DNA of 64,000 nt from Paucidesulfovibrio gracilis DSM 16080. GTDB taxonomy: Bacteria; Desulfobacterota; Desulfovibrionia; Desulfovibrionales; Desulfovibrionaceae. Both the position numbers and the translations under genes were made by a program. The DNA is taken from contig NZ_FUYC01000001.1 of assembly GCF_900167125.1 (NCBI RefSeq), positions 1 through 64,000 of the forward strand, written 5' to 3'. Position 1 is the first letter of the stretch; each line of letters opens with the position of its first letter. The notes below the pieces were generated by a model, which was not told where the DNA came from, searched no databases, and saw only the letters and a list, made by a program, of their open reading frames with translations. Below are positions 29,078 to 41,932 of the stretch, in pieces.

Positions 29078-29500
29078 TCAGGCGTCCACACGGGTCAGGT
29101 CGTCCATGTCCACGTCACCCTGTTCCAAACGTTTTTCAAGATGCGCCTGCCGGACCTTTTTCACCAATGTTTCCGTGGGACACGGTTTGATCAAATAGTC
29201 AAAAACACCGTGAGACATCATCTCCATGGCATCATTCACCGAGGCATGGCCCGAAAGCACGACCACCTGCGCGTCCACGCCCAACGCCTCCATGCCCTCA
29301 AAGACGGCCCGCCCGTCCATTTCCGGCATCTTCATATCCAGCAGCACCACGTCGAACTCTGCTTCAGCCAGCAGATCCAACGCCCCGGCACCGTCGTGCA
29401 CTCCCTGAGCCTCCATTCCCTGCCGGTTCAACAGGCGGACCATATTTTCGCAAAACCGTTCCTCGTCATCCACAACCAACACACGGATTTTCGTCTCCAT
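29078..29500 (-). CDS. Single-domain response regulator (REC-5)
   Basis: A 140-aa receiver with no output domain: acidic pair DDE at 11-13, phosphoacceptor Asp55 (LLDMKMPEMDG), switch Thr/Ser in VLSGHAS and Lys in LIKPCPT. A short Asp/Glu-rich tail follows. The ATG at 29500 has GGGAGG upstream and lies 2 nt past the kinase stop. It is the last gene of the large operon and the likely partner of the kinase just upstream. With no DNA-binding domain it must act through protein contact or a relay. Confidence 0.93.
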   Translation of the reverse strand: METKIRVLVVDDEERFCENMVRLLNRQGMEAQGVHDGAGALDLLAEAEFDVVLLDMKMPEMDGRAVFEGMEALGVDAQVVVLSGHASVNDAMEMMSHGVFDYLIKPCPTETLVKKVRQAHLEKRLEQGDVDMDDLTRVDA

Positions 29501-29502
29501 GA

Positions 29503-30456
29503 TCAATCCTCCCGTTGCGTGAGTGACGGCAGGCGCACGATGAACTCCGCACCCCTGCCCCGTTCGCTTTCCACGGCCAGGGTTCCGCCCAACTCGTTGA
29601 CAATGCGAAGGCAGATGGACAATCCCAGTCCGGTTCCCTTGCCCGGTTCCTTGGTGGTGAAAAACGGGTTAAAAATTTTCTCCAGGTGTTCCCGGGCAAT
29701 TCCCGGTCCGGTGTCCCGAATCCTCATCTCCACCCCGTCACCATCGAGATGCCGAGTCGCAATGGTGATGCGCCCGTCCCCGCCCATGGCCTGGGCAGCA
29801 TTGTTCAACAAGTTGAGCACCACCTGCCGTACCAGAGGCGGGTCTGTGCAAACGTTCGGCGGCGGCTCCGCGTACTCTCGCTCGATAAAAATTTCCTTGT
29901 TACGAATCTCCAACTCCACCAGCCGAACCATGTCGTCTATGAGCTGGTTCATATCCGTCTGCTGAATCACGGCCTCCCGTTTGCGGGCAAAATCAAGCAT
30001 TCCCCGCGTAATGTGGCAGCAGCGGTCCACCTGTCGTGTGATTTCTCCCAGACAGTCCACCACGTCATCCCGATCTTCCATCCGTTCAAATGTGGCACGG
30101 GGTAAAAGCATTTCCATCAGCTCCACTTCCTGAGCGATCACGGCAAGGGGATTGTTGATCTCATGGGCCACCCCGGCGGACAATTCGCCCAGGGCGGAAA
30201 GCTTTTGCGACTGTATCAACTGCTCGTTGAGCACGCGGATTTCGCGACGACTGCCCGCGAGATCCCACCACAGACGAAAGCCCAGCAGCGCCAGGGCCAC
30301 GGCACACCCCACAGCGATGAGCAGTCCGCAACGCCCCCCAACCTCCAGGGCGGCCAGGGCCACCAAGAAGACCACGGCAGGAGCCACATACCGCTCCACA
30401 ATCAGCAGCGAGTGCAACCAACCGGGCTGTCCGGTCCGGACCACGGACGCGGTCAT
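29503..30456 (-). CDS. Membrane histidine kinase without large sensor domain
   Basis: A 317-aa kinase: two N-terminal membrane helices (APAVVFLVALAALEV and LLIAVGCAVALALLGFRLWW), a coiled linker, HisKA with His98 in ELSAGVAHEINNPLAVI, and HATPase with N box (LLNNAAQAMG), G1 (DTGPGIA), F box (FNPFFTTKEPGKGTGLGL) and G2. There is almost no periplasmic part, so it may sense through its membrane helices or a partner such as the transporter or YIP1 protein of the same operon. It overlaps the preceding receiver gene (ATGA). Confidence 0.94.
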   Translation of the reverse strand: MTASVVRTGQPGWLHSLLIVERYVAPAVVFLVALAALEVGGRCGLLIAVGCAVALALLGFRLWWDLAGSRREIRVLNEQLIQSQKLSALGELSAGVAHEINNPLAVIAQEVELMEMLLPRATFERMEDRDDVVDCLGEITRQVDRCCHITRGMLDFARKREAVIQQTDMNQLIDDMVRLVELEIRNKEIFIEREYAEPPPNVCTDPPLVRQVVLNLLNNAAQAMGGDGRITIATRHLDGDGVEMRIRDTGPGIAREHLEKIFNPFFTTKEPGKGTGLGLSICLRIVNELGGTLAVESERGRGAEFIVRLPSLTQRED

Positions 30457-30845
30457 GGCTGCCGCCCACGGTTCAACCTGGAACGCTCGTACGCCTTGAG
30501 AATTCGACCCAACAAATCCTCGATTTTGAACGGCTTGAGCACGTAATCATAAGCCCCCAGACTGATGCCCTGGATGCCGGATTTCACGGACCCATGGCCC
30601 GTAAGCATGATCACTTCCACATGCGGGTGCCGCTTTTTGATCTCCTGAAGGGTTTCCAGGCCGTCCATACCCGGCATCTTCACGTCCAGCACCACCACGT
30701 CAATATCGTTGGACCGCAGGTATTCCAGCGCCTCCTGGCCGCTGTTCACCCCCCGCACATCCAGGTTGCGCATCAGGAAACGCTTGACGAAAAGCTTCAC
30801 GAAGTCTTGCTCGTCGTCCACAACCAACACCTTGACCTTGCTCAT
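30453..30845 (-). CDS. Single-domain response regulator (REC-4)
   Basis: A 130-aa receiver: DDE at 10-12, Asp54 in VVLDVKMPGMDG, Thr in MLTGHGS and Lys in VLKPFKI. No output domain. I set the start at ATG 30845 (MSKVKVLVVDD); the longer open frame lies over the end of the upstream kinase. Flanked by kinases on both sides (37 nt after one, overlapping the other), so cognate partnership is ambiguous. Confidence 0.92.
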   Translation of the reverse strand: MSKVKVLVVDDEQDFVKLFVKRFLMRNLDVRGVNSGQEALEYLRSNDIDVVVLDVKMPGMDGLETLQEIKKRHPHVEVIMLTGHGSVKSGIQGISLGAYDYVLKPFKIEDLLGRILKAYERSRLNRGRQP

Positions 30846-30882
30846 GCTACCCGCCTTGTTTCCATCGTGTTCGTGCTCCGGC

Positions 30883-32520
30883 CTAGGCAGGCAGATGCAC
30901 CGTGAACGTGGCGCCCCGCCCAGGCTCGCTCTCCGCGTTGATCCGGCCTCCCAACCGCTCCACAATGCCGTAGGTGATGGAAAGCCCCAGTCCCGTCCCC
31001 TCCCCCACTTTTTTGGTGGAGAAAAACGGATCAAAAATCTTGTGTATCAATTGGGGATCGATTCCCGGTCCCGTATCGCTCACGCTGAAGCTCACTTCCC
31101 CGCTGCCGGTTCCGGTTCGCACCTGGATGGAACCGTCGCGCCCCACAGCGTCAATGGCGTTTTCAAGCAGATTGAGCACGACCTGCTGCACCTGGGTGGC
31201 GTCCGTGTTGATCAGGGGCAGATCCGGGGCGTATTCTCGTTGAATGATGATATTGCGGTGCATGGCTTCGTTGGCCAAAAAAGAAATGGTCCCTTCCACC
31301 AATGCGCCCACATCCACATTCTCCTGCACAGGCTCCATACGCCGGGCAAAACCGAGCATGCGGTGGGTCACTGTTTTGGCCCGCTCCACATGCCGATCAA
31401 TATCCCGTGCCGCTTCTTCGATTTCCTCAAAATGCTTCAGGCATTCCGGATCCTCATCCGTCAGCAAATCCGTGATCCAGCCCGCGGCCTCACGGATCAA
31501 CGTCAGAGGATTGTTGACCTCATGGGCTACCCCGGCGGCCATCTTGCCCAGGGCCGCGAGCTTGCTGGACTGCATTAGATTCACATCCGCCGCCGCCTTT
31601 TCACGGTCCGCCCGTTCCACTTTGGCGACAATGCTCCGAGTGGTTAAAAACGCGCCCGCAAAGATCACCACCACCCCGCCCAGCACCAAAAACAGAGCAA
31701 TGGAACGAACGGTCAGCAAGGGGGACATCTCCTCGCTGGGGTCTTCGGAAATGACCAATTTCCAGTCCATGGTCCGCAAGGGAACAATTCCTGCCAACTC
31801 CCGTCGCTCATGGCTCGGCAGATCCAAAATCGTCAGCTCGTTGATGCCCTCTACGGGCAGGAAGCAGCGCTCCAACGCGGGCGGACCGAACCGGGACGGA
31901 GTTTGCAGCACTCCCTCCCCATTCACGAGATAGGCATCGCCGCGTCTGCCGAGCTGCACACTCTGCACCAGCCTGTTGAACACTTCGGAATCAATGGTCG
32001 CCCGCAAAATCCAGCTCTGATCTCCATCCCGGCGCAGCACAGCGATGATGAAATGGGGATAATTGCGAAAGCCCATAAACACGTCGGAGACATACACCCC
32101 CTTCAGCGTGACCTGATGGAACCAGTCCTCATCCGCGTAGTTGGCGCCAACCAGATCATACGGTCCGGCGTAGGCCACGTGGCGGCCATCGCTGCCAATG
32201 ACACCCAGATCAATGAACGAAGCCGATCCCGTGCGGATGGTGCCGAAAAGTTCCGACAAAAACGTCTGGTCGCCCATTTCCGACAAGGTATGCGTATACG
32301 CGAGGTTGCGGACCTGGGCGATGCGCTCCTGCAGAAACATGTCCACGGCGTACCGCTTGTTTTCAATCATAATCCGCAGGTTGGACGTAACTTTTTCCTC
32401 ATAGGTACGGCTGAACCGGGAATTGATGAATGAGCCGAGCGCCACTACCGGGATGAGTGAAAAGCAGACGATCACTCCGATGAACTTCCACCGCAAAATG
32501 CCGTATCCTCTGGCGTCCAT
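30883..32520 (-). CDS. dCache sensor histidine kinase
   Basis: A 545-aa membrane kinase. A membrane helix (IGVIVCFSLIPVVALGSFI) leads into a periplasmic double Cache domain (about 40-285) with the stretch VAYAGPYDLVGANY then YVSDVFMGFRNYPHF; a second helix follows (about 270-300). The cytoplasmic part has HisKA with His333 (MAAGVAHEVNNPLTLI) and a complete HATPase (LLENAIDAVG, DTGPGID, FDPFFSTKKVGEGTGLGL). The sensor closely resembles that of the kinase at 40052-41794, so the two are paralogues likely reading related ligands. It starts 3 nt after the PPDK-like gene. Confidence 0.95.
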   Translation of the reverse strand: MDARGYGILRWKFIGVIVCFSLIPVVALGSFINSRFSRTYEEKVTSNLRIMIENKRYAVDMFLQERIAQVRNLAYTHTLSEMGDQTFLSELFGTIRTGSASFIDLGVIGSDGRHVAYAGPYDLVGANYADEDWFHQVTLKGVYVSDVFMGFRNYPHFIIAVLRRDGDQSWILRATIDSEVFNRLVQSVQLGRRGDAYLVNGEGVLQTPSRFGPPALERCFLPVEGINELTILDLPSHERRELAGIVPLRTMDWKLVISEDPSEEMSPLLTVRSIALFLVLGGVVVIFAGAFLTTRSIVAKVERADREKAAADVNLMQSSKLAALGKMAAGVAHEVNNPLTLIREAAGWITDLLTDEDPECLKHFEEIEEAARDIDRHVERAKTVTHRMLGFARRMEPVQENVDVGALVEGTISFLANEAMHRNIIIQREYAPDLPLINTDATQVQQVVLNLLENAIDAVGRDGSIQVRTGTGSGEVSFSVSDTGPGIDPQLIHKIFDPFFSTKKVGEGTGLGLSITYGIVERLGGRINAESEPGRGATFTVHLPA

Positions 32521-32523
32521 GGC

Positions 32524-35199
32524 TCATTCTCCCTGCGTTGCCTCATGGTCGTTGCCGTTGCGGAACGATTCCGCAATGGTTTGCAAATCCCGCCGTATCC
32601 GCTCCGCCACCCGGGCGACCCCGGCGGAATCTCCCATGACCATGTCCAGCTGCCGCGTGTGGATCACCAGATATCCCACCATGCGAAGCAATTCGGCCAT
32701 CTGCGTCGCTTCGGCCACTTCCAGACGCGCATACAGAGCGTCGTCCTTCAGCTCCACCAAAAACGAATGTTCCTCCAGCACCTCCCCAACCAAGCGCGCC
32801 CGGGCCACACGGCGCTCCCGATCCGCGCCCCCGCCCTTGAACTGGAAAATCACGTAATTTTCCTCGGGGTCATCACCCAGAACAGCTTCCACTGTGCTGA
32901 AATGGTAGCCAAAACGGGATTGCAGGGAACAATACTCCCGAGTGATCAAGAAATAATTTCGCACCGCGTAGGGACATGCGGCCCCTTCCGCCAATCCGGG
33001 ATCCGAGGCGGACCGCACCATAATGGAGACCAGTCCCCCGGCATCCACAGCAGGCGGTCCTTCCCAGGATATGGCCCGCATGCCCTCCCAAAGAGCCAGC
33101 ATGGGACGGGATCGCACCAGGGAAAAATCCACGGTTTTTTGCCGCCCATCCGGGGAGGACGGGTCAGCCGTCGCAAGTCCGTTCTCCAGATCCACGACCC
33201 AATATTGTAACGGCACCCCATCCACCAGACGACGGCTCACGCCGCGTTCCAGCGCTGTTCGCGGCTCCGCGCCAAACATCTCCCGAACACCCATTTCGTG
33301 GCAGTAGCGCAACACGTCGTGCAGGGTTCGACAATTATTCGGCGCAAAGGATCGCGCATCAGGGTTATCCAAGTGCAACGGCGTTAAATGCTCCAAAACG
33401 GTTTCCAAACATTGATGGACCGCACTGCCAAACAAAACGCCCTGTGCGGGGCCGCGCCTGGTTACGATCTCCACCTGTCCAGAAAACACGGCTCCATGGT
33501 CCGCATCCACCGTGACAACTCGTTCCTGTTCCTGCATGGGAGAAAGCACTGTCAGGGCATCCGGCACGGAAAACAGGGCCGGGATACCGTATTCCCGGGC
33601 CACACAAGCCAAATGCCCGGCCGAAGAGCCGTGCTCCGTAATAACGGCGCAGGCGCGGGACAAGAGCGGCGCCCAGCGGGGCCGCGCACTCCGCGCCACC
33701 ATCACCGCACCGGGAGGAAACTGAAGCGCGTCCGCATCGCTCCGCACAATGACCACAGGACCGGAAGCCGCACCCGAAGACGCGGGAACGCCACCGCACA
33801 GCAACGGATCCGGCAAGTCCACCGCTGCGGGCACACCCTCGTCCTCCTCTTCTCCATCGTCGGCCTGCGATTGCGCGAAATGCATGTCCCGGCATTGCAA
33901 AAGCACCACCGCACCATCCTCACGAATGGTCCACTCCACATCCTGGGGCGCGTCAAAAATCTTTTCCAAGCGCATTCCCAAACCGGCCAATGCAGCGGCC
34001 TGTTCATCCGTAATACTTGGTTGTCCCTGCTCCGAGGGCGGCAACTCCGACGCAACCGTCCCTTCCCCGTCATGGCAATCGGTCCGCTGCTCCTTGTGCC
34101 CTATCTCACGGCAAACCATTCGACGGCCTTTTCGGGTCACGGAAAACCGGTCACAGGCGGCCGCACCGTCCACAATGGCCTGCGGTAATCCAGGCACTGC
34201 GCTGATGACCACGGTATCCGCATCGGGTTCCAAGGGGTCGCGAGTATAGACCACCCCCCCGGCACGCGCCCGGACCATTTCCATGCAACCCACAGACATA
34301 TCAACGTCGCAATCGCGAATCCCGCGATGCAGCCGGTAAGCCATGGCTGATGGACCATATTTGCTCGCCACCACAGCCTTGAAGGCCTCGGCCACGTTTT
34401 CCGGCCGCACGTTCAGCTCCGTATGAAACTGTCCGGCAAAGGATGCTCCCGGCACATCCTCTCCCAAGGCGGAGGAGCGCACGGCCAAGCGTAGCGGCTC
34501 GGGCGACAACGCCTGCATCCGCGCCAGTTCTTCATTCATATCCCGCAACAAACCGGCCGGGATCGTGGCCCCCTGCACCATGCCACGCAATTGGGAACTG
34601 AGGGCGTACAACGCTTCCAAATTTCCGAGATCCGCCATCTGCAAAAGCCGGTCGATCTCACCGGGAAGGTCGTTGCGTTCCAGGAACCGACGACACGCCG
34701 AAGCCGTGATAACGAATCCCTCGGGGATACGGACTCCCAAGCGCTGCCGCGCCTCGCCCAACCGGGCCAATTTCCCTCCGGTTTCATTCGCGTCCACCCG
34801 GGTCAACCGCTCCACGGCCAAAACATTATTGGACCGATTGACCGGCTCGGGCCTGCGCAAAACCGAATCCACGGCCATCCGAATCTGCTTCAACGATACA
34901 AACAAGTCTTCATAGGGACCGGGAACCATGCGGTTCAACTGGCGCACCATCTGAAATCCGGCCATCAGCGCACGGACGGACAGCGCCCGGATTCTGGCCA
35001 TGCCGAACGGGGACTCCGCCCGGCGCAGTTCCTCCAACTCCGCCAGAGCGGACAAGGCTTCATGATTGGCCTTGACCAGCAGACGGAAACTCCGGCAACG
35101 CACCCGGTACTCCTCACGCAATTCCGCCAGCTGCCTTGCCCCGCGTTCACGGGTGCCGCGTCCGAGAAACCGGCGTATGGCCAAGAGTGCCGTCCCCAT
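32524..35199 (-). CDS. PEP-synthase/PPDK-like phosphotransfer protein lacking the PEP barrel
   Basis: An 891-aa protein. Residues 1-115 are helical and charged. A PPDK/PpsA-type ATP-grasp domain spans about 120-445 (GGKLARLGEARQRLG, IPEGFVITASA, VRSSALGEDVPGASFAGQF with Arg241, GGVVYTRDPLEPD, DVEWTIREDGAVVLLQCRD). The phosphohistidine swivelling domain spans about 460-600 with catalytic His529 in ITEHGSSAGHLACVAREYG. The PEP/pyruvate-binding TIM barrel that should follow is absent. Instead residues 610-891 form a different domain (CRTLHDVLRYCHEMGVREMFG near its start) of unknown function. So ATP-driven autophosphorylation of His529 looks feasible, while the phosphoryl acceptor is unknown. It is embedded between a receiver (12 nt) and a kinase (3 nt). 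Confidence 0.88.
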   Translation of the reverse strand: MGTALLAIRRFLGRGTRERGARQLAELREEYRVRCRSFRLLVKANHEALSALAELEELRRAESPFGMARIRALSVRALMAGFQMVRQLNRMVPGPYEDLFVSLKQIRMAVDSVLRRPEPVNRSNNVLAVERLTRVDANETGGKLARLGEARQRLGVRIPEGFVITASACRRFLERNDLPGEIDRLLQMADLGNLEALYALSSQLRGMVQGATIPAGLLRDMNEELARMQALSPEPLRLAVRSSALGEDVPGASFAGQFHTELNVRPENVAEAFKAVVASKYGPSAMAYRLHRGIRDCDVDMSVGCMEMVRARAGGVVYTRDPLEPDADTVVISAVPGLPQAIVDGAAACDRFSVTRKGRRMVCREIGHKEQRTDCHDGEGTVASELPPSEQGQPSITDEQAAALAGLGMRLEKIFDAPQDVEWTIREDGAVVLLQCRDMHFAQSQADDGEEEDEGVPAAVDLPDPLLCGGVPASSGAASGPVVIVRSDADALQFPPGAVMVARSARPRWAPLLSRACAVITEHGSSAGHLACVAREYGIPALFSVPDALTVLSPMQEQERVVTVDADHGAVFSGQVEIVTRRGPAQGVLFGSAVHQCLETVLEHLTPLHLDNPDARSFAPNNCRTLHDVLRYCHEMGVREMFGAEPRTALERGVSRRLVDGVPLQYWVVDLENGLATADPSSPDGRQKTVDFSLVRSRPMLALWEGMRAISWEGPPAVDAGGLVSIMVRSASDPGLAEGAACPYAVRNYFLITREYCSLQSRFGYHFSTVEAVLGDDPEENYVIFQFKGGGADRERRVARARLVGEVLEEHSFLVELKDDALYARLEVAEATQMAELLRMVGYLVIHTRQLDMVMGDSAGVARVAERIRRDLQTIAESFRNGNDHEATQGE

Positions 35200-35211: not shown

Positions 35212-35589
35212 TCAGTTCCGAGTGGAACAACGTGCAGCGTCGCGTATTTTGGCGAACAATTCGTCAAACGCCACAGGCTTGATCATGTAATCAAACGCTC
35301 CCAATTCCATTCCCGTAAACGCGGAAGCCGTATCCGCATGGCCGGTGAGCAAAATAACGGCCAAATCCGGAAACCGCTCCTTAAGGCGACGCAAGGTCTC
35401 AATGCCGTCCATGCCGGGCATTCGGACATCCAACACCACGGCATCGAATGTCCCGTGTTCCAGTAAATCCAGAGCCTGCCGTCCGGACTCCGCCGTGGTC
35501 ACCAACACACCGCGTCGGGCCATTCGCCGGGTCACCAGGGTCAGAAATTCCGACTCATCATCCACCAACAACAACCGCATCTCTTGCAC
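35212..35589 (-). CDS. Single-domain response regulator (REC-3)
   Basis: A 125-aa receiver: DDE at 10-12, Asp54 in VVLDVRMPGMDG, Thr in LLTGHAD, Lys in MIKPVAF. No output domain. I chose the GTG at 35589, 8 nt after GAAGGAG; the ATG three codons later has no ribosome site. It lies 12 nt ahead of the PPDK-like gene and 23 nt after the YIP1 gene, with no kinase adjacent, which suggests it may act on or with the PPDK-like protein (inference). Confidence 0.92.
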   Translation of the reverse strand: MQEMRLLLVDDESEFLTLVTRRMARRGVLVTTAESGRQALDLLEHGTFDAVVLDVRMPGMDGIETLRRLKERFPDLAVILLTGHADTASAFTGMELGAFDYMIKPVAFDELFAKIRDAARCSTRN

Positions 35590-35612
35590 GGCCAACACTC
35601 CTTCGCCGGTCG

Positions 35613-36215
35613 TTAACCGGCCAAGCCGCCCTGCAGGTCCATAAGCACGGGCAGAGCCGACCACATCAGCAGCAGGAACAAAATGACGGTCAACACAACG
35701 GCAAACACGGACTGCCAGGGCCGCAGGCCACAGGCCTTGGTCAGCCCAACGCAGACCAGCAGTGCGCGAATCGGTTCGGTGAACACCTGCAACGCCGGAA
35801 TCCAGGAAACGGGCATGACCGTACCCGAGGCAAAGGCCACAATGGTGAACACACGCTTAAAGGTGGTTCCCGCTCCCAGAAACATGTTCATGACCAAAAG
35901 GCACAAGAAAGCCAGCAACGCGGGCAGAGCCATGGCATTGATCATCAGAATCCCGGCCATGGCCAACTTGTGGTTGAAAAAATAGGTGACGCTGACCATG
36001 GTATGGAACAATGCGGCAAGCGCCAGATATCGCCAGGCATTGCGATAATTTTGCGGCGTATCCTCCAATCCGGCAAAGAAAATCCGTGGGGCGCGTACAA
36101 TTTCCGTCATGGTGGTGAAAAACCGTCTGGTATCCAAGGGCGAGGTATCGGCTTCCACGCGGCGTTCGCTTTCCGTCCCCGGATCGGCTTTAAGAGCAAG
36201 GCCTTGCCGGGTCAT
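35613..36215 (-). CDS. YIP1-family membrane protein
   Basis: A 200-aa protein: a soluble N-terminal part (about 1-60, with TEIVRAPRIFFAGL) and five membrane helices, in the pattern of the YIP1 domain (DxFxxxxxP, here replaced by the APRIFF region; FGSGTVMPVSWIPAL-like loop ASGTVMPVSWIPALQVFTEP). Bacterial YIP1 proteins have no settled function. Its ATG overlaps the stop of the small membrane-protein gene (ATGA), so both are made together, probably as a membrane complex with the transporter. Confidence 0.8.
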   Translation of the reverse strand: MTRQGLALKADPGTESERRVEADTSPLDTRRFFTTMTEIVRAPRIFFAGLEDTPQNYRNAWRYLALAALFHTMVSVTYFFNHKLAMAGILMINAMALPALLAFLCLLVMNMFLGAGTTFKRVFTIVAFASGTVMPVSWIPALQVFTEPIRALLVCVGLTKACGLRPWQSVFAVVLTVILFLLLMWSALPVLMDLQGGLAG

Positions 36216-36490: not shown

Positions 36491-38344
36491 TCAGAAGCCC
36501 GGCAGATCGCCGAACCCCCTTAAGCTCCAGTACACAGCGGTAAGCAGAATCAGTACGATGTTGGCCACAAACCATGCGGGTACGCCCACACGGAGGTAGT
36601 CCTTTGGCTCCAGGTAGCCCGAAGCGTACACGATGGCGTTGGGCGGCGTACCGATGATCAGGCAGTAGGCAAAGGACGAGGCCACTGCCGTGGACATGGC
36701 CATGAAGGGCAGATACGTGGTACCCGGATGCACGATGCCGGCCATGTTCAACGTGATGGGACCGACCGCGGCTGCTGCGGGACCATCCGCCATGAGGTTG
36801 GTCAGCACAGCGGTGAGTCCGTTGGAAGTAAGCATCAGGGAGATGCCGCTGTCCATACCGAGCGGAGCCATGAAGTCCACCACGGACTGGGCCAGCCAAT
36901 AGGCCGCGCCTGTCTTATCCAGGGTGCGACCGAAGATGATCGCGCCCGCGTACAGCCAGACAACGCCCCAGTCCACCTTCTCCTGATAGTCCCGCCAGTT
37001 GACCACGCCGGCCAGCAGGTAGGCCACCGCACCGGCCACGGCGATAACGCCGATGCCTAGACGCACGGGATAGATGCCCATGTTGTAGAAGATCTTTTCC
37101 GTGAACCAGCCGTACACCATGACCAGGAAGATGATCAGCGCCCAGACCTGGTGCTTGTTCCAGCCGCCCATCTTGCCAATCTCGCTCTGGAGGTGACGCA
37201 TGGCCGGAGCCAGAGACGTGATTCTCGGCTTGAAGCGCCAGTTGACCAGCAGCCAGGTCAGGGGAATCATGATCAAGATGAAGGGGAAGCAGTAGGTGAC
37301 CCACTGGAAGTACCCGATATCGAATCCGAACATATCGGTGAGGTAGGTCATCATGATCACGTTTCGTGCGCCGCCCGAAGGAGCGCCCGGCCCACCGATG
37401 TTGCAGGCCATGGCAATGGCGATCATGAGCATTTTCGCCAGCTCCGGATCCTCGGGAATCTCATCGGTGAGGCTGTTCTGATACAGCAACATACCGATGG
37501 GCAGGAACATGGCGGCCAGGGCGTGGTCCGAAATGAACGCGGCCAGCGGGGCGATGATGACAAAAAAGATCAGCGTAATCCAACGGGCGTTGGGCACGGC
37601 CAACTTTTTGAACATCATCAGACAAACGCGCTTATCCACGCCGGTTTTGACAAATGCCGCGGCAAACATGAGAGAACCCATGATGAACCAGCAGGCGTCC
37701 GACCAATACAGTCCGGCCACGTCGCGCCGGGAGACCACACCCGTGAAAACCAGGATCAGGCCGATGCAGAAGGCTACGCCGGGCAGGGGCATGCATTCGG
37801 TAACAAAGCAGAAGACCACGAAGACCACCAGGGCGATGGCTACCTTGATCTCCCAACTCCCCTTATCCGCCTTGACCTGATCCTTATCCGACAATTCGTC
37901 ATAGTTGAGCCGGTGCATACGCAGATCAAACGCGCCTTTCAGCAACGCCTGGTACTGATCCGCGGTCACCTCGGTATCCACGTATTCCAGCGCCCGCTTA
38001 AGGTTGGCACCGTCAACGGGGATCTTATATTTTTTGCACCACTTGGCGTCACGCTTCAAAAAACGGTCTCTGGACATGGCGCCCATGCGCATGTTCTGTT
38101 CCATCATCTGACAGGTGACGAGCTGCCACTGCGCCAGGTTGGACGATTTCTCCTGGAACAGCTCCTGCGCCAGATACCCGACAACCGCCTTGGGTCCCAC
38201 CTGATACTGCATGCCCACTTTCTGCATGCTTTGCGGCGTGGGCAACAGCACGATGACCGCGAACAGGATGACCGGTATGATCAGCAGCTTCCAGTTTACG
38301 TACTTATCGTATCCTGTGGCTTTCTTCTTGGTGGATTCAGCCAT
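36491..38344 (-). CDS. DASS-family anion transporter with periplasmic insertion
   Basis: A 617-aa sodium-coupled anion transporter of the DASS/SLC13 family. The core has about 11-12 membrane segments with signatures CNIGGPGAPSGGARNVI, FISDHALAAMFLPIG, LTAVLTNLMADGPAAAA and IIGTPPNAIVYASGYL. After the first helix (about residues 19-37) comes an extra hydrophilic domain of about 125 residues (38-162) holding Cys residues (TCQMM, KWCKKYK) and predicted to be periplasmic, making the protein longer than typical members. Substrate is uncertain: sulfate or a di- or tricarboxylate fit the family. It lies in a sigma-54 operon with receivers and kinases, so its substrate is probably what the cluster senses. 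Confidence 0.9.
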   Translation of the reverse strand: MAESTKKKATGYDKYVNWKLLIIPVILFAVIVLLPTPQSMQKVGMQYQVGPKAVVGYLAQELFQEKSSNLAQWQLVTCQMMEQNMRMGAMSRDRFLKRDAKWCKKYKIPVDGANLKRALEYVDTEVTADQYQALLKGAFDLRMHRLNYDELSDKDQVKADKGSWEIKVAIALVVFVVFCFVTECMPLPGVAFCIGLILVFTGVVSRRDVAGLYWSDACWFIMGSLMFAAAFVKTGVDKRVCLMMFKKLAVPNARWITLIFFVIIAPLAAFISDHALAAMFLPIGMLLYQNSLTDEIPEDPELAKMLMIAIAMACNIGGPGAPSGGARNVIMMTYLTDMFGFDIGYFQWVTYCFPFILIMIPLTWLLVNWRFKPRITSLAPAMRHLQSEIGKMGGWNKHQVWALIIFLVMVYGWFTEKIFYNMGIYPVRLGIGVIAVAGAVAYLLAGVVNWRDYQEKVDWGVVWLYAGAIIFGRTLDKTGAAYWLAQSVVDFMAPLGMDSGISLMLTSNGLTAVLTNLMADGPAAAAVGPITLNMAGIVHPGTTYLPFMAMSTAVASSFAYCLIIGTPPNAIVYASGYLEPKDYLRVGVPAWFVANIVLILLTAVYWSLRGFGDLPGF

Positions 38345-38393: not shown

Positions 38394-39293
38394 TCAGTTC
38401 GCCAAAATGCGGCCTATTTCGAAAAACAGCTCCTGCTCCCGAACCACGCCCACGATCTTTCCATTCTTGGCCACGGCCAAACGCCTGGCCCGCTGGAAAT
38501 ACATGGTCTCGGCAATCTCCATCAGGTTGGTGGACGCATCCACTACGGGCGGCGTATCGGACATGATGTCCGCCACCTTCATGTCGGCGATTTCCTTAAT
38601 CCGGGATGTGAACAGCCCCTGCCAGAACATGGTGGAGTATTGCAGGCTGTCGGCCATTGACGGCTTGGGCGCGCTCAAATAAGGTGGCCGAGCGGCCGCT
38701 ATCAGATCCATGGGACTGAGAATACCGGTGAGGTCGCCTCCCTTGTCGAAGACGAGAATGGAGCGATGCCCGGTATCCATGATACGTTCCGTGGTGACCA
38801 GCTGCGTGCTCAGACTGCGCAGTTTATCCACGGCAGAACGAACGGTCTCGTCCTCGGTAATGGTCGTATAGTTGGTAAGCGGAATCATCACCTCTTCTGC
38901 CAACCGCTCCTGGTAGGATTCCTGCTTTGCCGCTGCCACGGCATCGCGAATCTTCGCGGAGAGCAAATCCACGTCGCAGGGCTTGGTCAAATAGTCCTGC
39001 GCGCCGGAGTCCAGCGCCTCCTTGGCGCTGGGCAGCGCTCCGTGTCCCGTGAGCATGATCACCGGCACGTCCGCGTCGATCTCCCGGATTTTCCGCAAGG
39101 TCTCGTGTCCGTCCATGCCCTCCATTTTGATATCGAGAACCACCACATCGGGTTTCTCGACCATCATTTCCAAGGCCTGTTCGCCGCTGGCGGCCATGAC
39201 GGTGTCGTACCCCTTGCGCTCCAAAATCTTGGCCGTGGTGGTGCGAAACCGCTCCTCATCATCAACCATCAACACTTTTATATTGATTGACAT
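38394..39293 (-). CDS. Response regulator with CBS-pair output (REC-2)
   Basis: A 299-aa protein: receiver at 1-122 (DDE 11-13, Asp54 in VVLDIKMEGMDG, Thr in MLTGHGA, Lys in LTKPCDV), then two CBS motifs at about 135-299 (EEVMIPLTNYTTITEDETV and GHRSILVFDKGGDLTGILSPMDLI; VADIMSDTPPVVDASTNLMEI and RARRLAVAKNGKIVGVVREQEL). CBS pairs bind adenine nucleotides, so the output may be set by energy charge. The ATG at 39293 has AGGAGG upstream; the longer frame overlaps the preceding receiver. 49 nt ahead of the DASS gene, suggesting control of transport at protein level (inference). Confidence 0.92.
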   Translation of the reverse strand: MSINIKVLMVDDEERFRTTTAKILERKGYDTVMAASGEQALEMMVEKPDVVVLDIKMEGMDGHETLRKIREIDADVPVIMLTGHGALPSAKEALDSGAQDYLTKPCDVDLLSAKIRDAVAAAKQESYQERLAEEVMIPLTNYTTITEDETVRSAVDKLRSLSTQLVTTERIMDTGHRSILVFDKGGDLTGILSPMDLIAAARPPYLSAPKPSMADSLQYSTMFWQGLFTSRIKEIADMKVADIMSDTPPVVDASTNLMEIAETMYFQRARRLAVAKNGKIVGVVREQELFFEIGRILAN

Positions 39294-39312
39294 TTCTACC
39301 TCCTTTTGGGCG

Positions 39313-39729
39313 TCAATCTCCTCTGACGACATTCCGACTCCTGGCTAAGCAGATTTTCTCCTCGAGTTTCTTCCTCCTTTCAAACGCCTCTTCCGACTTG
39401 CCGAGCAGGCTCTTCATGCTCACCGGTTTGATCAGATAATCAGCAGCACCAAGCCGGATTCCTTCCACCGCGGCTTCCAGCGAGGCGTGCCCCGTGAGCA
39501 TGATGACCTCGATCATGGGGTTGATCTTTTTGATCTCCTTCAAGACCTTCAGGCCATCCATACCCGGCATTTTGATATCCAAAAAAACGACATGAACCGT
39601 CTCGCTCTCCAAAAGACGCAACGCGTCTTCACCGCTGGATGCGGTGAGAACGTCGATCCCGATCTTGGAGAACAACTTCTTCGTTGTGTAGAGGAGGCGC
39701 TGTTCGTCATCGACAATCATGATTTTCAT
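39313..39729 (-). CDS. Single-domain response regulator (REC-1), first gene of sigma-54 operon
   Basis: A 138-aa receiver: DDE at 7-9, Asp51 in VFLDIKMPGMDG, Thr in MLTGHAS, Lys in LIKPVSM, and a basic C-terminal helix. No output domain. The start is ATG 39729 (MKIMIVDDEQ); codons upstream lie in the promoter leader. It is the first gene after the sigma-54 promoter at 39841-39856 and the likely partner of the kinase at 40052-41794. Confidence 0.92.
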   Translation of the reverse strand: MKIMIVDDEQRLLYTTKKLFSKIGIDVLTASSGEDALRLLESETVHVVFLDIKMPGMDGLKVLKEIKKINPMIEVIMLTGHASLEAAVEGIRLGAADYLIKPVSMKSLLGKSEEAFERRKKLEEKICLARSRNVVRGD

Positions 39730-39840
39730 GGCGACTCTTCTTGCCCTTTCCTGTTCGTTGCGTTTACGGACGGCCCCCGCGGGCTTTCGTCCCGGGCCGT
39801 TTCGCAAATCCTCTGGCCCCTCCGACATTTCCTCTTCCAA

Positions 39841-39856
39841 AGCAATCCATGTGCCA
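39841..39856 (-). promoter_or_regulatory. Sigma-54 promoter of the signalling-transport operon
   Basis: On the minus strand this is TGGCAC-N5-TTGCT, a perfect -24/-12 match. Transcription would begin near 39829, about 100 nt before REC-1, and could run through eleven genes to 29078. Confidence 0.88.
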
Positions 39857-39870
39857 CAATATTCGGTCAT

Positions 39871-40051: not shown

Positions 40052-41794
40052 TCACCCCTTTTGTGGCCGGGGCAGACGAACCGTAAACCGGGTTCCCCGT
40101 CCTGGCTGACTTCGTACATCCATATTGCCGCCCATGCGTCCCACAATACCGTGGCAAACGCTCAAGCCCAATCCTGTTCCTTTTCCCACTGGCTTTGTGG
40201 TGAAAAACGGCGCAAAGATCCGTTCCATATTTTCCGGGCTGATGCCGCACCCATTGTCCCGGACTTCTATGTCCACCATTCCTTTTTCTCCAGGACCGCA
40301 AAGCACAACGACCTTGCCGCCCCCGTCGGGATGATGCTCCTCCACCGCATGCAGGGCGTTATTCAGCAGGTTGAGCACCACTTGCTGCAATTGTCCGGGA
40401 TCGGCCCGTACAAACACGGGATGGGGAGGCGTTTCCAGTTCCAATGCAATGCCGCGCACGGCCGCCTTTTCCTCTACCATGCCCAGCACCTCGGGCAGAT
40501 ACGCCCGCAGTTCCACATCCTGAACCACGGAGTCGCCCTGCCGCCCGAATTGCAAAATGGATTGCGTGATTTTTGCGCAACGGCTAATCTGCAACCGCAG
40601 CTGCTCCATGGACGTTCGCACTTCCGCGCAATCCTCTCCTTCCTGCAGCGTCCCTTTTTCCACCATGTCGGTCATGACCATTTCCATATAGGAAAGGTCG
40701 CTTTTCATGACTTGCAGCGGATTGTTGATCTCGTGAGCGATGCCCGTGGTCATTTCCCCTATTTCCGCCAGACGGGCCGCCCTGTAGAGATGATCGCGCA
40801 GCCCTTCTTTTTCATGAAATACCCTGGTGAGCGCCAGCTCCAGGCGACCACTGATGGTGAAGGCCAACACCGAGATGATCAGGCCGCCCAGCAAAAAAAT
40901 AGCAGCGATCCAACTGGCGGCCTCCTGCAAGTGCGCAAAAGCATCATTTTTTTCCTGCCGGGCCACGAGCAGCCACTTCCCGTTGTTAATCCAGGCCGCA
41001 CAATACAAATAGTCCGTGCCGTCTTCTCCCGCAGCCTCCAGCACATGAATCCCCCGGCCGGGATGCAACGCCTGCTCCGGCACCCGCGCCTGGCTGAGCA
41101 GGGCCGCACCACTGCGCGGTTCTGTTTGGTAACGCCCATGGGCATCCAGAATCCACGCTTCACCAGTGGATCCCATGCGAATACGCTCCACCATTCCGGA
41201 GAATTCATGTGGATCCATGGTGGCGCGCAATACGGCTGTCTGCTCCCCGACTTTTCGGGCCACGGCCACCACAAAGTGCGGCTCATTCCGGTATCCGAGA
41301 AATACGTCGCTGATGTGAACGCCCTTGGTGAGCGTGGCCTGAAACCACTCGGCCTGCGAGTAGTCCTTTCCTGCCAGGGAATGCGGCCCGGCATACGCCA
41401 CCTGCCGCCCCTGCTCGTCAATATACCCCAAATCCACAAAGGCCCGGCAACTCCGCCGCAGCCACTGCAAGCGGTCGGTAAGCACATCGGTATCGGCAAG
41501 TTCTCCATGTGCCTCGAAATCCAGGAGCAGTTCCAAATCGGCACGGCGCTCCCGTAAATATGTTTCGATCATTCGCCCATGGTCCTCTACGATACGTCGC
41601 ATGGTCTCCATGGATCCCGTGCGGACAGCATTTGTATACGCGGCATGTCCCACAACGAGGACAAACAAAAACGGCGTCAGCGTTGCCACCCCAAGTGCCA
41701 CCAATAATTTGCGCCGCATCCCCTGAAACGGATTTGGTTCCAGACCAATGGCCGGATCTGCGGTATCCCGGCTTTTGCCCTTATTCCTACTCAT
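40052..41794 (-). CDS. dCache sensor histidine kinase under sigma-54 control
   Basis: A 580-aa membrane kinase: a basic N-terminus, a first helix (LLVALGVATLTPFLFVLVVG, about 30-52), a periplasmic double Cache domain (VAYAGPHSLAGKDY, then ISDVFLGYRNEPHFVVAV), a second helix (AAIFLLGGLIISVLAF), HisKA with His354 in MTTGIAHEINNPLQVM, and HATPase (LLNNALHAVEE, DNGCGIS, FAPFFTTKPVGKGTGLGL). I chose the ATG at 41794, with GGGGGAAG upstream; a GTG four codons earlier is possible. The sensor is paralogous to that at 30883-32520. It is transcribed from its own sigma-54 promoter, divergent to the activator gene. Confidence 0.94.
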   Translation of the reverse strand: MSRNKGKSRDTADPAIGLEPNPFQGMRRKLLVALGVATLTPFLFVLVVGHAAYTNAVRTGSMETMRRIVEDHGRMIETYLRERRADLELLLDFEAHGELADTDVLTDRLQWLRRSCRAFVDLGYIDEQGRQVAYAGPHSLAGKDYSQAEWFQATLTKGVHISDVFLGYRNEPHFVVAVARKVGEQTAVLRATMDPHEFSGMVERIRMGSTGEAWILDAHGRYQTEPRSGAALLSQARVPEQALHPGRGIHVLEAAGEDGTDYLYCAAWINNGKWLLVARQEKNDAFAHLQEAASWIAAIFLLGGLIISVLAFTISGRLELALTRVFHEKEGLRDHLYRAARLAEIGEMTTGIAHEINNPLQVMKSDLSYMEMVMTDMVEKGTLQEGEDCAEVRTSMEQLRLQISRCAKITQSILQFGRQGDSVVQDVELRAYLPEVLGMVEEKAAVRGIALELETPPHPVFVRADPGQLQQVVLNLLNNALHAVEEHHPDGGGKVVVLCGPGEKGMVDIEVRDNGCGISPENMERIFAPFFTTKPVGKGTGLGLSVCHGIVGRMGGNMDVRSQPGRGTRFTVRLPRPQKG

Positions 41795-41932
41795 CACTTC
41801 CCCCACATACCTATGGCACCGCCCTGCCTGCCCGTCCGCACTATGCAGCCGGAAACCAACTCATCCAACGCCCTGAACATGGCGAGATCCGCATTTTTTT
41901 TTCGCAAAATCTCTTCAAAGCGGTGCCGCTTT

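Follow-up and report, generated by a model that had tools for sequence, protein, structure and literature searches.

A phosphoenolpyruvate-synthase-like protein without the phosphoenolpyruvate barrel, linked to receivers and oxyanion permeases in sulfate-reducing bacteria

Sulfate respiration begins with the uptake of sulfate, a step whose control in sulfate-reducing bacteria is poorly understood. In the stretch of DNA analysed here (the window, 64,000 nucleotides from one end of a contig of Paucidesulfovibrio gracilis DSM 16080) a gene on the minus strand encodes an 891-residue protein that resembles phosphoenolpyruvate (PEP) synthase and lacks its PEP barrel; we call its family PPSL, for PEP-synthase-like. 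The family is real, widespread and poorly described, and more general than a preliminary description of the gene, made from the letters of the window, had thought. By the criteria tested PPSL appears to be neither a PEP synthase nor a rifampin phosphotransferase (RPH) and looks like a barrel-less dikinase, and its C-terminal domain, which has no recognised relative, adds to the range of such proteins. The explanation we favour, to which we give about an even chance of being right, is that PPSL passes phosphate from ATP via His529 to control oxyanion uptake in dissimilatory sulfate reducers, under a receiver partner. Bringing together mostly aprA-bearing genomes, oxyanion permeases, receivers and a nitrate phenotype in one cluster, PPSL offers a concrete handle on the control of sulfate uptake and also on the nitrate treatment of oil-field souring.

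The open reading frame named in the preliminary description (32524-35199) was borne out, and its domains were assigned using Pfam. A nearly full-length ATP-grasp domain (PPDK_N, profile positions 3-319 of 328; 277 bits, cut-off 27) is followed by a complete swivelling phosphohistidine domain (PEP-utilizers mobile domain PF00391, 1-72 of 72; 60 bits, cut-off 23.1), after which nothing is matched in the 891 residues, the PEP-utilizers_C barrel (PF02896) included. HisKA and HATPase_c, the domains of two-component histidine kinases, have no match in the protein either. The NCBIfam model of PEP synthase, TIGR01418, covers residues 126-578 only, with 297.9 bits against a cut-off of 739.75, and the RPH equivalog model NF041857 gives 233.5 bits against a cut-off of 999. 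A chance architecture is excluded because the same domain layout recurs in many genomes.

Conservation was assessed in two sets of members that overlap in genomes: set A, with 76 members hand-picked from protein-search stretches before their neighbours were inspected, and set B, with 85 members from 80 loci, the best 80 of 552 relatives found by a profile scan of contigs with a 17-row alignment. A 75-row alignment holds 75 of the 76 set A rows (the partial member L086:15733-17961 was left out), and pooling both sets (161 rows) and removing identical or short rows gave 153 aligned members. All 153 keep R241 and R437, while K143 is present in 151, E422 and H529 in 150 each and Q435 in 149; apart from the histidine these residues presumably correspond to the catalytic set of pyruvate phosphate dikinase (PPDK), whose mutants K22A and R337A appear by title among the VIA-align structural matches of the PPSL model. 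The preliminary description had called both catalytic domains intact, naming Arg241, the motif Q435-C436-R437 and His529, and all were found in their places. Polar residues of the C-terminal domain are also kept: D628, H634, R800, D820 and D852 in every one of the 153 members, H627 and R631 in 152 and H766 in 151, so that in the alignment they seem as fixed as an active site. The protein begins with about 120 mostly helical residues that lie before the Pfam matches and that the preliminary description does not mention; F38, N45 and L49 of this region are conserved in the 75-row alignment. A few rare copies lack His529 and/or ATP-site residues (L049:10245, L162:354, L046:7993 and L070:9012), some of them near another PPSL copy, and might possibly be inactive regulators.

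A whole-protein AlphaFold2 model built from the 75-row alignment has a mean predicted local distance difference test score (pLDDT) of 88.8 and a predicted template modelling score (pTM) of 0.83. Using VIA-align, its ATP-grasp and swivel domains (residues 121-574) superpose on RPH (5hv3; Z 40.2, root mean square deviation, rmsd, 2.9, 425 residues aligned), and PEP synthase (2ols; Z 39.9, rmsd 5.0, 374 aligned) ties with it. The C-terminal domain folded alone gives a pLDDT of 88.2 and a pTM of 0.82, and the order of its strands and helices is not the eightfold beta-alpha repeat of a barrel. A profile comparison of this region with the barrel domain of a 606-residue protein from the same genome likewise gave no match (probability 0.2%). 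The replacement of the barrel by another domain, proposed earlier with a length of about 280 residues, is thus confirmed, the replaced part spanning about 300 residues (roughly 584-880).

Relatives of the C-terminal domain were sought by sequence and by structure. The window copy has no Pfam match, and across the C-termini of the 75 members 14 Pfam families were each matched weakly by one or two members. No relative was found among PDB sequences (best E 0.66), Foldseek gave nothing at E <= 0.001 against the PDB, a viral library likewise gave nothing at that threshold, and the best VIA-align result, with Z 6.7, is under the stated noise level of the method. A weak recurrent Foldseek set (DR_1245, 2plg, ExsC and YscB; E 0.012 or worse, TMq <= 0.23), which we take to represent YbjN- and type-III-chaperone-like folds, is a lead only. 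The RIF-binding-domain fold is absent among the matches listed for the isolated domain, which is no exclusion of that fold.

A protein search with PPSL gave matches in 54 of 59 genomes, that of P. gracilis among them, and as many as 13 in a single genome; the weaker matches need not be PPSL. With a profile of the C-terminal domain alone, PPSL was found in 107 of 297 sampled genomes of its own phylum and in 39 of 148 of a second phylum, that of a Nitrospiraceae metagenome-assembled genome (MAG; G354). By title, most of the 80 loci of set B belong to Desulfobacterota or Deltaproteobacteria, with a few Proteobacteria, one Nitrospiraceae and two Myxococcota MAGs, both of which also carry aprA; being the best 80 of 552, they give no measure of the family's rarity elsewhere. 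The gene aprA (TIGR02061, over cut-off) is present in 99 of the 107 PPSL genomes of the first phylum vs 18 of the 190 without PPSL; for the second phylum the corresponding counts are 34 of 39 and 26 of 109. Fisher values for the two phyla (1.6e-49 and 3.3e-12) overstate the tie because genomes are not independent. Among the eight exceptions of the first phylum three (G194, G221 and G134) hold aprA pieces under the cut-off, and among the five of the second G432 holds two pieces. The family was not described in the literature searched, as text without figures or supplements; the gene could appear in Fig. 5C of PMC11887813, the protein was not found by term in the text of PMC10102598 and PMC4215793, and that of PMC3333781 does not mention it.

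Several variants were seen on the way. PPSL proteins of 1061-1089 residues with a C-terminal extension of about 220 residues occur in the second phylum (L230:5260-8502, L231:6778-10020, L234, L235 and L236), the extension having weak lectin/laminin-G-like matches under cut-off in four of the five scanned. Two or three PPSL genes lie side by side or a few kb apart in L041, L043, L051, L070, L082 and L088, and long open frames in L036, L080 and L042 looked like upstream read-through in GC-rich DNA and not like fusions.

The neighbourhood of PPSL was scored in 94 different members whose flanks reach 5 kb in either direction. The control used randomly placed positions, not matched genes, in 20 regions that come from the same genomes and lie away from PPSL genes; 3 of these regions hold a receiver and 1 a TauE gene. 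A receiver lies within 5 kb in 84 of the 94 (10% of control placements) and within 300 bp in 41 (3%); in set A the closer spacing was found for 35 of 76 vs 3% of random placements. A permease of the DASS or TauE/SafE type, families confirmed by Pfam on representatives, lies within 5 kb in 63 of the 94 (TauE 51, DASS 18; control 1.6% and 0%, respectively), and 61 have both a receiver and a permease in this range. Two-component linkage, noted before for the window gene, is therefore conserved across members far above background placements. What the preliminary description had read from the letters stands as to the missing barrel, the conserved ATP site and His529 and this linkage; it had missed the DASS and TauE/SafE permeases, aprA and the nitrate phenotype.

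Permease labels on a quick tree of the 153 members require 54 changes over five label groups, unscored members forming one of them, vs a shuffled mean of 69.6; they are clustered on the tree yet change often. In the second phylum TauE or DASS genes were seen on 5 of 15 stretches inspected (L237, L238, L239, L241 and L242). A scan of ten recurring neighbour frames, a sample of the neighbour clusters that includes some antisense frames, yielded permease and signalling families. A protein of about 240 residues, membrane-anchored by eye, is encoded within 5 kb of PPSL in 40 of the 94 members (e.g. L065:4956-5690 and L075:9007-9729) and has no convincing Pfam family; its gene often separates that for TauE from PPSL. 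A reading as a defence system was dropped, the best PADLOC match (13.8 bits, E 0.008) not being convincing.

The P. gracilis genome has three PPDK_N genes, all of them PPSL, and all three lie near receivers, kinases and a permease, the TauE gene of the third being 5183 bp away and hence outside the 5-kb count. At the window gene (see table) the tight linkage reported earlier is exact, with 12 nt to the receiver frame on one side and 3 nt to the kinase frame on the other. The adjacent receiver has its D-D-D-T-K phosphorylation set intact, and no DNA-binding output domain was found by Pfam in the five receivers of the cluster, which stand alongside three kinases. Two further genomes of the same genus (L077 and L078) share this gene order. 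The DASS permease of the cluster, named for its family and not for a substrate, would be the target here; about 165 residues precede its transporter-domain match.

Features of the window gene and its cluster (positions in the window)
Feature	Position	Strand	Length or residues	Basis and remarks
PPSL, PEP-synthase-like protein without PEP barrel	32524..35199	minus	891 aa	Reading-frame translation and Pfam
N-terminal helical region	34840..35199	minus	1-120	Predicted secondary structure; without Pfam family
ATP-grasp domain PPDK_N	33853..34785	minus	139-449	Pfam
Swivelling phosphohistidine (mobile) domain	33493..33720	minus	494-569	Pfam
His529 codon, predicted phosphohistidine	33613..33615	minus	529	Kept in 150/153 members
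C-terminal domain of unknown family	32560..33450	minus	584-880	Structure prediction
Stand-alone receiver, PPSL-adjacent partner	35212..35664	minus		PF00072; 12 nt upstream of PPSL; listed start probably too early
Histidine kinase, dCache_1 + HisKA + HATPase_c	30883..32520	minus		Pfam; dCache_1 43 bits, cut-off 45; 3 nt downstream of PPSL
Stand-alone receiver	30453..31034	minus		Pfam; listed start probably too early
Histidine kinase	29503..30456	minus		Pfam
Stand-alone receiver	29078..29506	minus		Pfam
Yip1-domain protein	35613..36215	minus		PF04893, 29 bits, cut-off 28.6
DASS-family permease (sodium:sulfate symporter type)	36491..38344	minus		PF00939 158.8 bits; TIGR00785 220.1 bits, cut-off 198.6
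Receiver with two CBS-domain stretches	38394..39332	minus		Pfam
Stand-alone receiver	39313..39870	minus		Pfam
Histidine kinase with dCache_1	40052..41806	minus		Pfam; dCache_1 78 bits

A phenotype has been described for one gene cluster that matches the surroundings of a sister PPSL copy in gene order. The text of PMC4001038 reports a Desulfovibrio nitrate cluster, DVU0251-DVU0245, without naming a protein family; it comprises genes for a TauE-like permease, a hypothetical protein, a PtxB-like protein, a kinase (a pseudogene in D. vulgaris), a receiver, a protein with PPDK and PEP-mobile domains and a phosphatase. For isolated insertion mutants in DVU0246, DVU0247, DVU0250 and DVU0251, growth with 100 mM nitrate equalled growth without it; nitrate inhibited the DVU0245 mutant and the control, and no mutant of the cluster did better in nitrite. 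Loss of the PPDK-like, receiver or TauE gene thus gave the same nitrate resistance (PMC4001038). The third PPSL copy of P. gracilis (C5; L076:6446-19433) is accompanied by genes for TauE, a 210-residue protein of unknown kind, a PhnD/PtxB-like protein, a PAS kinase, a receiver and a dual-specificity phosphatase, in an order equal to that of the nitrate cluster save for one 176-residue frame on the opposite strand in between; it adjoins a PhsA-like molybdoprotein gene that scores under the PhsA cut-off. The window gene has other neighbours; it is a paralog in a DASS cluster and not an ortholog of the nitrate-cluster gene.

From these observations we infer catalysis, an acceptor, gating by the receiver and the permease as target. 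The ATP-grasp domain would use ATP to phosphorylate His529 of the swivel domain, with AMP and Pi as by-products; the swivel domain would then hand the phosphoryl group to an acceptor at the conserved C-terminal domain in pyruvate's stead. Transfer from ATP to His529 and on to an acceptor independent of the barrel is suggested because of the anatomy and the precedents of RPH, HpeHI and VadK, and transfer to another acceptor as in RPH is plausible. The stand-alone receiver encoded 12 nt upstream may be the regulatory partner of PPSL, set by the Cache-domain kinases of the cluster, and the output would be control, mostly post-translational, of oxyanion uptake, through the DASS permease here and TauE/SafE in sister clusters. 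Oxyanion uptake is proposed as the target because of the linkage, the co-occurrence with aprA and the phenotype that mutants in the permease, receiver and PPDK-like genes have in common. A bolder version, which we offer as speculation and think rather unlikely as a whole, makes this a third kind of phosphoryl signalling: a phosphohistidine protein powered by ATP would, together with its own receiver, gate permeases for sulfate, thiosulfate and related oxyanions post-translationally, as an ATP-driven counterpart of the nitrogen-type phosphotransferase system (PTS) with a new C-terminal acceptor domain, and would also be the switch by which nitrate inhibits or spares these bacteria.

Several points weigh against control of oxyanion uptake by PPSL. 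When D. vulgaris mutants were tested in pools, those in DVU0250 and DVU0245 showed low fitness, a DVU0248 mutant had little or no advantage (a preliminary result), pooled and isolated mutants disagree for some genes, and the authors suggested a leaky thiosulfate transporter (PMC4001038, text). Polar effects might account for the nitrate resistance, or it might arise by some other route, and the orthology of DVU0246 (2235 bp, and so shorter) with the third P. gracilis copy rests on gene order, neighbour size and annotation, not on the DVU0246 sequence. The neighbourhood control has only 20 regions, one of them with a TauE gene, and of the 129 members that could be scored, 29 lack a permease within 6 kb. 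That scoring left 24 of the 153 rows unscored (short flank, no permease) and favours linkage because rows with short flanks entered only when a permease was present, a bias that the count over 94 members avoids. TauE linkage is also less specific than DASS linkage because TSUP (TauE-type) proteins are abundant in sulfate reducers (PMC5840216, text). Finally, phylogeny confounds the association with aprA, the 18 and 26 aprA-positive genomes counted above do without PPSL, and G354, the Nitrospiraceae MAG, has PPSL and no aprA match.

An unlikely reading, although the best of the alternatives, is that PPSL is a small-molecule dikinase like RPH or HpeHI, with a metabolite bound by the C-terminal domain as the acceptor of the phosphate on His529, the product being a signal or an intermediate in the metabolism of sulfur anions. 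The best structural matches of its catalytic part, RPH and PEP synthase, agree with this, polar residues invariant across paralogs suit one fixed substrate site, and barrel-less precedents exist (PMC4844700 and PMC12167813, in their text). However, up to 13 matches per genome and clusters with receivers and kinases better suit signalling, and no catabolic enzyme was found among the ten recurring neighbour frames scanned.

We consider it distinctly improbable that phospho-His529 gives its phosphate directly to the adjacent receiver, which would make PPSL a third type of two-component phosphodonor. Of the 49 adjacent receivers 47 were analysed; all 47 keep the phosphorylation residues, and they cluster on a receiver tree (18 changes vs a shuffled mean of 43.8) that has few columns and weak forks and is poorly resolved. 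In D. vulgaris, mutants that lost the receiver also had the same phenotype as those that lost the PPDK-like gene (text of PMC4001038). However, PPSL need not be the phosphodonor, because ordinary histidine kinases share these clusters and can feed the receivers, and residue retention is no sign of a special partner, because nearly all other receivers of the clusters keep these residues as well. Direct exchange would, in addition, leave the invariant C-terminal domain unexplained.

Still fainter is the prospect of an adenylate or anion sensor without turnover, in which binding of ATP or AMP changes the shape of PPSL and so modulates the receiver or the permease. A CBS-receiver lies in the same cluster, and energy or APS sensing via CBS proteins is proposed in the text of PMC11887813. 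Strong conservation of the catalytic histidine and the ATP residues argues against such a sensor; His529 is lost in only 3 of 153 members, two of which also lack E422 and Q435, a pattern that fits a family in which catalysis is the rule.

It is hardly credible that PPSL is a PEP synthase that binds pyruvate through a new domain: all PPDK_N genes of the genome are PPSL and its one PEP-utilizers_C match lies in the 606-residue frame, by size like PTS enzyme I, but a PEP-carboxykinase-like gene is present (76 bits against an NCBIfam cut-off of 369, and so under it), the TIGR01418 score is low, and multiple copies in regulatory clusters do not suit the role. Because of that gene PPSL need not make PEP, and the idea of PPSL as the sole route to PEP was dropped. 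The frame in question (L225:1063-2793) encodes a divergent ATP-type PEP-carboxykinase-like protein with 35 bits to PF01293, and the frame adjoining it presumably encodes an oxaloacetate decarboxylase beta subunit; the GTP-type enzyme has no match in the genome.

Control of oxyanion uptake by PPSL, our preferred reading, has a counterpart in published clusters. In sulfate reducers, clusters built around a DASS sulfate transporter and encoding Cache kinases, two-component proteins and CBS proteins have been described and are proposed to control sulfate uptake (PMC11887813, text). The window has the same layout of DASS permease, Cache kinases, receivers and CBS protein, one dCache_1 domain being just under cut-off, and compared by description it shares its kinds of genes with the cluster of Desulfosarcina variabilis. 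The text of PMC11887813 does not mention a PPDK-like protein and assigns the regulators to the WalR type; in the window, by contrast, Pfam finds no DNA-binding domain in any of the five receivers.

As to the protein itself, PEP synthase and PPDK (PF01326, PF00391 and PF02896) share with PPSL an ATP-grasp domain followed by a swivelling phosphohistidine domain, and PPSL differs from them in the missing PEP-utilizers_C barrel, its extra N-terminal helices and its different C-terminal domain. Phenylphosphate synthase is a barrel-less dikinase made of two separate polypeptides, with an aromatic acceptor. Likewise without a barrel, RPH combines an ATP-grasp domain and a swivel histidine with another acceptor domain, in the order ATP-grasp, acceptor, histidine, whereas in PPSL the histidine domain (494-569 of 891) comes between the ATP-grasp and the new domain (PMC4844700, text). 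HpeHI resembles PPSL as a barrel-less dikinase but consists of two separate polypeptides and uses an aromatic acceptor (PMC12167813, text). VadK of mycobacteria is, like PPSL, derived from PPDK; the text of PMC13400623 reports that it acts as a regulatory kinase and autophosphorylates on its swivel histidine in a manner that depends on ATP and Mg. This text makes no mention of a receiver partner and describes a protein of about 50 kDa with the ATP-binding and histidine domains only; by that description PPSL is set apart by its third domain and its adjacent receiver.

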